Source: a virus. From it: a stretch of DNA of 31,929 bases. A model generated the notes under the pieces. That model made no database searches, was not told where the DNA came from, and saw only the letters and a program-made list of their open reading frames with translations. Position 1 is the stretch's first letter. Each line of letters starts with the position of its first letter. Below, piece by piece: positions 15,851-31,261 of the stretch. The translations under genes were made by a program, and so were the position numbers. Location: positions 1-31,929 of IMG/VR virus record IMGVR_UViG_3300044695_004291; one strand, written 5' to 3'.

Positions 15851-16900
15851 ATGGGAATAAAATACATAGGTCAGCAGTCGGATAATAATTTTATATATCC
15901 AAATTATGACCCTAAACAATATGATGTTGAGATTGTTCATGACATAAACAATAATAGCGTATATGGAGTTGTTACCAATTTTAGTGCTACAACCGTAAAT
16001 TCTACAGGGATTACTATTAGTTTTGATTATACTTGGGCATTAAATGGTGCTGAACGTTATATTAGAAGTGATGGTGCAAATATGTCTGTATTATCAGTTC
16101 ATATGATGGCTGCTGGTCAATCTTATTTTAAACCTTTTAGGTTGATAAATTCATTAGCAAGTAATAATTTAACTGGTACAACTTTTAGTGGAACAATTAC
16201 AGATACATTTTTACCATCGGAATTGGGTTTAACTTCATTTGTAAATGGTACATATTATTATGAGGTTAGAATGATTGGTAAACGTGCTGTTTTTCCAATT
16301 TGTAGTTCATTTGAGGTATCAACTATTCCTACACCAACACCAACACCAACAACTACACAGACACCTACACCAACACCAAGTAGTACAGCAACACCTACGC
16401 CTACTGGTTCAACACCTACACCTACACCAACACCAACTCCTGTTGTTAGTATATACAATAGTGGTGTTACAATTAACGTAACAGATACAGGATATATTAA
16501 ATATACAAATAGTGGTGGAACAACAACATATTTCTATTGTTCAACATTAGGTAGTCAAGTAATACCTGGTTGTATAGTATGTGGTTCAATAAATTATGGT
16601 TACCCATTTGCTGATTTAGCAGAATGGACATTGGTGACTTGTGGAACAAGTTGTGGTGGAATTTCTCCAACCCCAACTCCAACCCCAACTGCAGAAAGTT
16701 TTGGACATTATATAATGACTGATTGTCAAACATATCAAACAAGATATACACAAAATATAGAATATGGAACATTTGATAGTGGAGATAGAGTTGAGGGAAG
16801 TTTTGGTTATTTCTATGTAATAACAGGATTTACACCATCATCACCTGACCCATCATTAATATTCTTTGTAACGGCAACAGGTAATTATGGTTGTCCATAA
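15851..16900 (+). CDS. Modular fibre protein with threonine-proline linkers
   Basis: 349 residues in three domains separated by two PT linkers. Domain 1 (about 1-155) is beta-rich and ends FPICSSFEVS. Linker 1 is about 157-198. Domain 2 (about 199-275) has five cysteines (FYCSTL, PGCIVCGS, TCGTSCGG) and could carry disulfides or bind metal. Linker 2 (about 277-284) is short. Domain 3 (about 285-349) has one cysteine near each end (TDCQTYQTRY and NYGCP). PT-linked cysteine-bearing domains are common in Bacteroidota surface and phage fibre proteins. It starts at a late-type motif and precedes the tape measure. Probably a tail-tip adhesin; no enzyme motif seen. Confidence 0.6.
   Translation: MGIKYIGQQSDNNFIYPNYDPKQYDVEIVHDINNNSVYGVVTNFSATTVNSTGITISFDYTWALNGAERYIRSDGANMSVLSVHMMAAGQSYFKPFRLINSLASNNLTGTTFSGTITDTFLPSELGLTSFVNGTYYYEVRMIGKRAVFPICSSFEVSTIPTPTPTPTTTQTPTPTPSSTATPTPTGSTPTPTPTPTPVVSIYNSGVTINVTDTGYIKYTNSGGTTTYFYCSTLGSQVIPGCIVCGSINYGYPFADLAEWTLVTCGTSCGGISPTPTPTPTAESFGHYIMTDCQTYQTRYTQNIEYGTFDSGDRVEGSFGYFYVITGFTPSSPDPSLIFFVTATGNYGCP
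16325..16445 (+). repeat. Threonine-proline linker repeat, copies 2
   Basis: Alternating proline and threonine codons between domains 1 and 2 of the fibre gene. A shorter copy lies at about 16667-16690. Low-complexity DNA shared with 14718-14790 could act as a recombination joint. Confidence 0.85.
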
Positions 16901-28770: not shown

Positions 28771-29310
28771 ATGAAAAATAATTTTGGAACGTATCTACCA
28801 CAGGATATTAACCTATATGGACCTTCAAGGGGTATTATATTGGGAAGAATCAAATCGTGGTGTCATTACAACAAAAAGAAAAAACAACATCTACACGATG
28901 GTGAATATTGGAGTGGTCATATTACTCAACAAGAATTTGTTGAACAGACTGGTTTAGATATTCAAACAATTAAAAGAGGATTAAAATGGTTACTTGATAA
29001 TGGAATTATTGAGAAAGGTAACTTTAATAAATTAGGTTTTGATAGGACGGGATGGTATCGTCCAACGTATCAAAATGATACTATGGTGGTATCAAAATGT
29101 ACTAATGTAAGGTATCAAAATGATACTATGGAAAGTATCAGATTGGTACCAACAATACCTGATAGTCCCTTTAAATCAATAGATAGTCCACTCCATGATA
29201 GTCCCTATAAATCCTTTGAATATATTAGTACATTCAAATTTGATTTATTAAATGAAGAAGAAAGAAACCAGTATTTAAAAAATAAATTTAATCACGAAAA
29301 ACAATTATAA
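28771..29310 (+). CDS. Replication initiator-like winged-helix protein with origin inside the gene
   Basis: 179 residues from the ATG at 28771; a TTG at 28756 is inside the leader stem. The N-terminal part is a winged-helix domain typical of phage replication O/DnaD-like starts: GPSRGIILGRIKSWCHYNKK, YWSGHITQQEFVEQTGLDIQ (helix-turn-helix), TIKRGLKWLLDNGIIEKGNF and RTGWYRPTY. The middle part is encoded by four phased iterons at 29067-29150 and a GATAGTCC repeat group. The final part is AT-rich DNA encoding a lysine/asparagine-rich tail. N-terminal DNA binding followed by internal iterons and an AT-rich stretch resembles lambda O. It may bind its own iterons and recruit host helicase; no helicase gene is seen. 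Confidence 0.65.
   Translation: MKNNFGTYLPQDINLYGPSRGIILGRIKSWCHYNKKKKQHLHDGEYWSGHITQQEFVEQTGLDIQTIKRGLKWLLDNGIIEKGNFNKLGFDRTGWYRPTYQNDTMVVSKCTNVRYQNDTMESIRLVPTIPDSPFKSIDSPLHDSPYKSFEYISTFKFDLLNEEERNQYLKNKFNHEKQL
29067..29150 (+). repeat. Four iterons, candidate replication origin
   Basis: GTATCAAAATGATAC at 29067-29081 and 29112-29126, GTATCAAAATGTAC at 29089-29102 and GTATCAGATTGGTAC at 29135-29149. Starts are 22, 23 and 23 bases apart, about two helical turns. Each exact unit is itself an inverted repeat (GTATC/GATAC). Confidence 0.75.
29161..29217 (+). repeat. GATAGTCC repeat group
   Basis: GATAGTCC at 29161, 29182 and 29197. The first and third are extended: GATAGTCCCTTTAAATC and GATAGTCCCTATAAATC differ at one position and lie 36 bases apart. 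Followed by an AT-rich stretch to about 29300. Confidence 0.65.
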
Positions 29311-29311
29311 A

Positions 29312-29446
29312 ATGAACAAAACAACAGTAGTAAAAGCAGAACCAGAAATTGACTGGTATATTTATCAATTAATTAATCATCCAAATTTTAAACTAGAATT
29401 ATTACTAGAATTGTATAACGAATTAAAAAATAATGAAAATGAATAA
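29312..29446 (+). CDS. Small 44-residue protein
   Basis: MNKTTVVKAEPEIDWYIYQL followed by INHPNFKLELLLELYNELKN and an acidic end. It starts one base after the replication-gene stop and overlaps the next gene by 14 bases. Acidic and helical. No known domain. The tight spacing on both sides supports translation. It could be a replication accessory by position, but this is not shown by the sequence. Confidence 0.5.
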   Translation: MNKTTVVKAEPEIDWYIYQLINHPNFKLELLLELYNELKNNENE

Positions 29447-29752: not shown

Positions 29753-30493
29753 ATGAAAGTATGTACAATTTGTAAAATAGATAAGGATGAAAACCAATAT
29801 GAAAAATACTGGCACTCAACGCAGAAAAAGAATAGAATCAGATTACAATGTACAGAATGTTTTTATAAACAGAAAAACGAAAGAAGACGTTTAAAACGAA
29901 AAGAAGTTAAATTGATACAAGTATCCATACGACCAGAGATAATTCAACCAGTGCAACCAGAATTGCAACCAGACCTATCTAGTGATAATAACTACAAACA
30001 ATGTAGAACTTGTCAACAATTTAAATTTAAAACAGAATATTATTCCTACAGTAAAACAGGTAAAAAATCATTTTTAGATTGCAGGATTTGTGTTAATAAA
30101 AAAGAAGTTGATAGGGCAAGAAAGGATAGAATAGAATATCTTGAAGAAAATGGTGGTAGTTTGTACCGCAAAGAAAATCCTGGTGAATGGGTAGATGATT
30201 ATCAAAAGCAAGCAACATACAATATTCTCAAAGCAATTGGATGGAAACTCAACGAAGATAATGGTATTTGGTGGAAGGATGGAATTAAAACCAGTGACGG
30301 AGTATTTATTAATATTAAAACTAAACCATCATCATTTAAAAATTATCCAAAAGTAATTAATACATTCCAAAAAAAGAAAATTTTTGATAAAGCAGTTGAA
30401 TTAAGAAAGCAAGGTAAATCATATAAAGATATTAGTAATGAAGTTGGTTTATCTGATACAACAATACTTAACTGGTTAAATTACAAAGAATGA
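29753..30493 (+). CDS. Duplicated zinc-knuckle protein with C-terminal helix-turn-helix
   Basis: 246 residues. Two similar cysteine units: CTICKIDKDENQYEKYW with CTECFYKQKNERRR (about 4-46), and CRTCQQFKFKTEYYSYS with CRICVNKKEVDRAR (about 84-124); each is C-x2-C, 20-30 residues, C-x2-C, fitting a treble-clef or zinc-ribbon. Between them is a proline/glutamine linker. Then comes a middle domain (WVDDYQKQATYNILKAIGWK, IWWKDGIKTSDGVFINIK) and a C-terminal HTH, FDKAVELRKQGKSYKDISNE followed by VGLSDTTILNWL, resembling resolvase/IS-type HTHs. DNA-binding regulator is the best guess; an HNH-type nuclease lacks the needed histidines. ATGA overlap with the next gene. Confidence 0.6.
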   Translation: MKVCTICKIDKDENQYEKYWHSTQKKNRIRLQCTECFYKQKNERRRLKRKEVKLIQVSIRPEIIQPVQPELQPDLSSDNNYKQCRTCQQFKFKTEYYSYSKTGKKSFLDCRICVNKKEVDRARKDRIEYLEENGGSLYRKENPGEWVDDYQKQATYNILKAIGWKLNEDNGIWWKDGIKTSDGVFINIKTKPSSFKNYPKVINTFQKKKIFDKAVELRKQGKSYKDISNEVGLSDTTILNWLNYKE

Positions 30494-30747
30494 AAATGTT
30501 AAGAGTTGGTGAGTTAGAAATACCTGCAGACTATTTTTCTTTACCTAAAGATGATAAGGATATAATATGTAATTCAATATTGGAAGCAATACTATACCTT
30601 TTAGAGAAACACGTTGACGAAGAAATAATAAGCAGAAAGGTAATGTTAAAAAGAATTATTGAATCTAGCATAATAACAAATGAGATGGAAGAAAATTACG
30701 AAGTAGCTGGAGTCTTGTTTGACATACAAAAACTAATAGATGCGTAA
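30490..30747 (+). CDS. Small helical protein of unknown function
   Basis: 85 residues, MKMLRVGELEIPADYFSLPK, then ICNSILEAILYLLEKHVDEE, LKRIIESSIITNEMEENYEV and a final amphipathic helix. Starts by ATGA overlap with the zinc-knuckle gene and overlaps the sigma-like gene by 8 bases, so the three are co-translated. No domain is recognised. By position it could be a partner or anti-factor of the sigma-like protein; the sequence itself does not prove this. Confidence 0.5.
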   Translation: MKMLRVGELEIPADYFSLPKDDKDIICNSILEAILYLLEKHVDEEIISRKVMLKRIIESSIITNEMEENYEVAGVLFDIQKLIDA

Positions 30748-31261
30748 AGAAATTGAGAGTTACCTAACAAGGGAATATTATCAGTTATTAAAGATAGCTA
30801 AAAAACTAACCAAGGGTGACCAATTATCTCAAGATTTACTACATGAAGTAATTATCCAACTATATGACAAGAATGATATTGTTCTTAAATCATATGACGA
30901 CAACTCAATAAAGTATTATATAACCGCAGTGATGCGTATCAATTACTATTCAAAAACCAGTCCATTCTTCTATAGGATAAAGCGTGAAAGAACATTGATG
31001 ACCGTTGACGTTACAACTTGTTGGGATATGTCATACGAACAGGAATCATTTGAAACAGAGGAGTTATACCAATTATTGGAAGAGGAGTATTGTGAATTGA
31101 ATTGGTTTAAAAAATCATTATTGGATATGTACCTAACCTTAAACTCATCCATGAAGGCGGTGTCAAGGAAAACAAATATACCCATTCAGAGCATTTCTCG
31201 TTATATTAAGGAGACAAGATTGGAAGTTAAAACAAACATCATTAATAAATTAAACAATTAA
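30740..31261 (+). CDS. Small sigma-70/ECF-like factor
   Basis: 173 residues. Region 2-like part: YYQLLKIAKKLTKGDQLSQD, LLHEVIIQLYDKND and IKYYITAVMRINYYSKTSPF (core-binding and -10 contact helices in sigma factors). Region 4-like part: WFKKSLLDMYLTLNSSMKAV, SRKTNIPIQSISRYIKETRL, a helix-turn-helix. The linker is acidic (EQESFETEELYQLLEEE). Length fits ECF-type factors. I recall similar small sigma-like proteins in Bacteroidota phages. It may direct host RNA polymerase to the late-type motif TTTATATTTARTA, which lacks a -33 box. The link is an inference. Confidence 0.7.
   Translation: MRKEIESYLTREYYQLLKIAKKLTKGDQLSQDLLHEVIIQLYDKNDIVLKSYDDNSIKYYITAVMRINYYSKTSPFFYRIKRERTLMTVDVTTCWDMSYEQESFETEELYQLLEEEYCELNWFKKSLLDMYLTLNSSMKAVSRKTNIPIQSISRYIKETRLEVKTNIINKLNN

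Follow-up and report, generated by a model that had tools for sequence, protein, structure and literature searches.

Several replication origins are known to lie inside the gene of their own initiator. In phage lambda, four iterons are annotated within gene O in the deposited record; the O proteins of lambda and of Stx phages are dimers that bind iterons, and an AT-rich tract is located to the right of the iterons of ori-lambda (PMC7466680). The Rep protein of plasmid pSK41 binds four Rep boxes placed centrally within rep, and a joint swap of its domain and origin is reported (PMC5703833). Phage SPP1 has oriL, with direct repeats, in gene 38 (PMC6316719). ORF20 of S. aureus phage 80alpha could not be complemented in trans, from which an embedded origin has been inferred (PMC5499656); a putative origin is marked at ORF20 in the deposited record.

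The DNA analyzed here (the window) comprises all 31,929 bp of IMG/VR contig IMGVR_UViG_3300044695_004291. Two near-identical contigs (L002 and L004) link the end of the window to its start through 682 bp; the genome therefore measures about 32.6 kb and is either circular or circularly permuted. Its large terminase showed 45% identity to that of Flavobacterium phage 11b and the portal 28% identity to that of Nonlabens phage P12024; judging from these resemblances, the host is probably a flavobacterium. The 682-bp region contains small ORFs, one of which could, by its position only, encode a small terminase subunit.

The analysis identified the ORF at 28771-29310 as very probably a phage replication initiator gene, with the replication origin in its middle. 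An initiator with a winged-helix N-terminus had been proposed in the first-pass annotation and was supported: the protein belongs to phrog_11233 (PHROG, replication initiation protein; E 1.8e-15 over residues 14-122, the N-terminal domain), and the AlphaFold2 model contains a winged-helix (wHTH) domain at approximately residues 9-98, with a pLDDT of about 90. A match to phrog_6493 was also obtained (E 4.5e-9). In the same model, residues 105-152, whose coding DNA includes most of the iterons and the sequence that follows, form a predicted disordered linker, and short C-terminal helices occupy residues 145-178. The best PDB fold matches of the wHTH domain were the N-terminal domains of RepA_N initiators (4pql, Z 9.9 over 97 residues, 9% identity). 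When PDB sequences were searched with the wHTH profile, nothing meaningful was matched, and a Pfam scan of the protein gave no family at E 0.01. The C-terminal DnaD/DnaB_2 domain (TIGR01446 / PF07261), present in relative L005, was not found in the window protein.

No helicase, loader or primase was recognized among the scanned window proteins or in the 682-bp gap. The lack of a recognizable P-like loader beside the initiator is weak evidence of absence, since no family was matched for many of the small neighboring proteins. Of 24 phage relatives, 15 have a helicase or loader gene directly, or almost directly, downstream from the initiator. Two weak matches were found downstream from the initiator of the window, to an endonuclease VII-like protein (29753-30493; phrog_2340, E 1e-6) and to a phage RNA polymerase sigma factor (30740-31261; phrog_1740, E 5e-6). 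Upstream from the gene, the intergenic segment 28567-28669 holds an imperfect AT-rich inverted repeat with 50-nt arms (72%).

Four repeats, one every 22-23 bases, had been noted in the first-pass annotation. All four starts were confirmed in the window sequence, with spacings of 22, 23 and 23 bp (Table 1). The repeat unit is a 15-bp interrupted palindrome, GTATCA-AAA-TGATAC; iterons 1 and 3 are symmetrical at 12 of 15 positions, and copies 2 and 4 are degenerate. The repeat-chain score at the array was 12, compared with 9 at most when the whole 31.9-kb window was simulated 40 times under an order-2 Markov model. Just one place in the window scores higher, a Thr-Pro-coding tandem repeat (16330-16455) inside ORF 15851-16900. 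Contig L004 differs in iteron 3 by one T-to-G change (equivalent to window position 29113), which lies near the contig end and is either a variant or an error.

Table 1. Features of the initiator gene and of the putative origin within it (window coordinates).
Feature	Position	Strand	Sequence or basis
Replication initiator gene, 179 aa from ATG	28771..29310	+	phrog_11233 profile; AlphaFold2 model
Recognition-helix codons (putative), LDIQTIKRGL, residues 62-71	28954..28983	+	alignment with relatives; covariation with iteron arms; model helix 64-76
Iteron 1	29067..29081	+	GTATCAAAATGATAC; read as YQNDT
Iteron 2	29089..29102	+	GTATCAAAATGTAC; one base short, right arm damaged; other frame, VSKCT
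Iteron 3	29112..29126	+	GTATCAAAATGATAC; read as YQNDT
Iteron 4	29135..29149	+	GTATCAGATTGGTAC; degenerate, 3 of 15 differ; third frame, SIRLVP
Second element, AATACC-TGATAGTCC, with GATAGTCC at 29161, 29182 and 29197	29154..29204	+	corresponds to CCTATACCAGATAnTAAnACAGATA of relatives
AT-rich low-stability stretch, candidate strand-opening region	29205..29320	.	78-82% AT (about 29200-29320)

Relatives were collected from phages, viral contigs and bacterial genomes of many phyla, yielding 226 wHTH loci, 161 of them non-redundant. Sampling was done by peptide patterns including the DxTxWY motif, so that the sample describes the DxTxWY-type family and not all initiators; alignments of subsets were used in searching for related loci, whole-set alignments being too diverse for this. 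The nearest relatives of the window are about 99.9% identical and add little information. Loci with the same protein and no repeats at that place, named in the first-pass annotation as grounds against its reading, were looked for: a significant array, mostly with 22- or 23-bp spacing, was found at the same place in 119 of the 161 non-redundant relatives, and in 113 of these 119 its copies do not all share one reading frame. The array was significantly palindromic in 115 of 161. The window gene has the layout of the phrog_11233 type, with the array after the DxTxWY motif and a spacing of about 22 bp.

Autocorrelation of the DNA of the linker, the part behind the DxTxWY motif, was compared with synonymous shuffles for 154 non-redundant relatives. 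Peaks were obtained at lag 22 (z 14.7) and lag 23 (z 5.6), with harmonics at lags 44 (z 8.8) and 45; no such peaks were seen in the wHTH or farther downstream. Because the spacings of 22, 23 and 23 bp place the window copies in three reading frames, selection acts on the DNA. The earlier proposal of mid-gene iterons selected at the DNA level is thus upheld, by the differing frames and by arrays of relatives that exceed synonymous shuffles.

Behind the array, most relatives carry CCTATACCAGATAnTAAnACAGATA. This second element (CCTATACCAGATAnTAA...) begins 12-13 bp from the center of the last repeat; in the window its counterpart ATACC starts at 29155, 13 bp from the center of iteron 4. ATACC was found 12-13 bp from the last palindrome center in 63 of 90 arrays, and the element motif occurred in 121 of 161 genes, compared with about 50 after synonymous shuffling. 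Codon usage at the element is biased: in 23 GC-rich genes the third-position GC (GC3) was 0.21 there versus 0.60, and its Ile codon was ATA in 115 of 125 cases versus 38% elsewhere.

The DNA downstream from the iterons had also been described as AT-rich. Directly past the array this is not so, the sequence being only 63-67% AT to about 29220; the description holds for the low-stability stretch in Table 1, where the 100-bp segment at 29221 ranks in the lowest 0.9% of the record for stability. GC skew, a check proposed in the first-pass annotation, gave no useful inflection in the window.

The arm sequences of the iterons vary among relatives, tracking the recognition helix. Covariation of helix and arms gave a partial Mantel r of 0.157 (p 0.001) when controlled for identity in the rest of the domain; this is the preferred figure, re-registered half-sites being noisier (partial r 0.141). 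Helix classes were first spotted by eye in a discovery set and tested on 90 held-out distinct linkers from two later scans. Helix E.TI[KR]R occurred with GG[AT]CAA in 11 of 12 held-out linkers (6 of 78 in the rest) and N.T[IL]RR with GCTCAA in 4 of 4 (1 of 86 in the rest). For KQ[IV]R, at least two exact copies of TTTGCCC/GGGCAAA were found in 20 of 52 held-out linkers and in 0 of 38 others; the direction is right and the rule is loose. These counts are support and not proof, because related sequences are not independent; the palindromic form and the link between helix and arms are statistical, drawn from phylogenetically non-independent relatives.

In two protein-selected sets, all seven linkers with the exact 15-mer belonged to genes with helix [ILV][IMQ]TIKR, the window helix being IQTIKR. 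Conversely, the eight genes with this helix all carried GTATCA-type arrays, one of them the GTACCA variant, and IKTLKR, VRTIKR and similar helices in these sets were found without such arrays. The window and the Staphylococcus phages have the helix core and the iteron in common, their identity elsewhere in the domain being only 25-29%. Viral contigs were also scanned DNA-first for the paired 15-mer, which yielded 37 stretches, 21 of them distinct. Sixteen of the 21 lie in DxTxWY-wHTH initiator genes, two with helix SLPTVKR or SEPTLKR; five lie outside such genes, one of these (L417) shortly after the stop codon of one. The 15-mer GTATCAAAATGATAC was also seen in L404 and L427, in ORFs not of the DxTxWY wHTH type, where it is read as YQNDT and SIKMI; one of these ORFs has, by eye, a different HTH. 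Convergence or iteron exchange is a possible origin of these two cases.

The wHTH gene of L417 (helix QLTIKR) ends ahead of two perfect GTATCAAAATGATAC copies and an element CCTATACCAGAGACTAACAGAG, which are for this reason non-coding. In five further loci (L193, L204, L219, L182 and L233) the element and/or the repeats lie wholly or partly past the stop. Such cases fit a function at the DNA level, although single ones might be recent frameshifts or gene decay. In L020 and L027, a second initiator-like ORF comes immediately after a short ORF that consists of the wHTH only; in L027 this second ORF has repeats at 24-bp in-frame spacing.

The closest counterparts of the window are initiators of the phrog_11233/6493 type in Staphylococcus, Listeria, Bacillus, Vibrio, Bacteroides and Burkholderia phages, which have a homologous wHTH and, at the corresponding place, an array spaced at 22/23 bp. 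Their second element is similar to that of the window. In two of these phages, vB_SarS_BM31 and Sebago, the 15-mer is identical. Unlike the window, these phages have a longer C-terminal part (DnaD_dom in BM31) and usually an adjoining helicase or loader.

The first-pass annotation had called the locus lambda-O-like, and for the layout this is correct: in lambda, Stx phages and phi80, as in the window, iterons lie inside the initiator gene behind an N-terminal DNA-binding domain, and lambda-type origins likewise have inverted-repeat sites with an A-rich center, a spacing of 20-24 bp and an AT-rich tract to the right. The likeness does not extend to the protein family. Lambda O carries PF04492 (E 5.7e-36), which was not found in the window protein at E 0.01; comparison with lambda O profiles gave a weak hhalign probability of 5.9%, and lambda has a P-like loader whereas none was recognized in the window. 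RepA_N initiators such as pSK41 Rep share the N-terminal winged-helix fold, being the best fold match; a shared fold is not kinship, and the window protein, from a phage and not a plasmid, had no Pfam match to RepA_N (PF06970) at E 0.01 and is 9-10% identical. SPP1 gp38/oriL, by its published description, also has the origin inside the initiator gene. In 80alpha ORF20, where an embedded origin is likewise inferred, the wHTH has no detectable similarity to that of the window and the repeats differ.

Other explanations for the array were considered. The wHTH protein might bind the repeats as an operator inside its own gene, blocking transcription or limiting its own synthesis, with replication starting elsewhere. 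Repressors, too, typically have palindromic sites and a wHTH, and many regulators were among the fold matches; the mid-gene place, the 22/23-bp array, the second element at fixed distance and the AT-rich tract suit an origin better, and both the family and the neighboring genes in relatives are replicative. We consider this explanation improbable, although autoregulation may occur alongside origin function. A partition (centromere-like) or incompatibility site for the wHTH protein is less probable still: some centromere-binding wHTH proteins were among the weak fold matches, but no ParA-like partner was recognized and the family annotation is replication initiation.

That the repeats mirror a peptide, YQNDT, selected in the protein has a negligible probability. 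Copies 1 and 3 both encode it, but across the four copies the translations are YQNDT, VSKCT, YQNDT and SIRLVP, which rules out a peptide repeat as the explanation; moreover, 22 is not a multiple of 3 and the signal exceeds synonymous shuffles. A peptide repeat as the sole cause is refuted by the frames, the shuffles and the non-coding iterons of L417. Some observations count against an origin itself: two of the four iterons are degenerate, the usual partner (helicase, loader or primase) was not recognized and the C-terminus is short, and some of the places with the exact 15-mer lie outside the DxTxWY wHTH family.

The best reading is that the internal origin would work by analogy with those of lambda O or RepA_N plasmids. 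With its recognition helix IQTIKR, the winged-helix domain would bind the iterons, which are spaced at 22/23 bp. Since every site is an inverted repeat, a form compatible with dimer binding, it would probably do so as a dimer. The filled array would then destabilize the AATACC/GATAGTCC element together with the AT-rich stretch on its right, giving the replicative helicase of the host a place of entry; no helicase or loader was recognized in the phage. Binding, dimerization, melting, origin activity and helicase recruitment are what we infer from the computed features. The bases of the iterons would at the same time code for the predicted disordered linker, expected to tolerate a constraint at the DNA level.

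The internal-origin plan is of a known kind, and the earlier claim that such an arrangement had not been described was too strong: lambda, Stx phages, SPP1 and RepA_N plasmids have internal origins that are already described, one is inferred in 80alpha ORF20, and deposited genomes of Staphylococcus, Listeria, Vibrio, Bacteroides and Burkholderia phages contain homologues with the same layout. What may be new are rules shared across phyla, namely a code linking helix and arms and a second element set at a fixed distance. No description of either was found in the literature searched, which was open-access only and gives weak evidence of novelty. Tentatively, and with slightly less than even confidence, the window can be regarded as one case of a phylum-spanning origin module, absent as such from that literature, that combines a wHTH initiator, 22/23-bp palindromic iterons, a helix-arm code and CCTATACCAGATAnTAAnACAGATA at 12-13 bp; CCTATACCAGATAnTAAnACAGATA, retained outside coding sequence in some relatives, may be a strand-opening or ssDNA-binding signal with a role comparable to that of DnaA-trios.

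For most environmental phages no origin is known. Should the rules hold, the initiator gene by itself would be enough to read the origin and its binding specificity across phages of many bacterial groups, and the helix-to-iteron code would be directly testable. The second element provides a concrete candidate for the site of strand opening.
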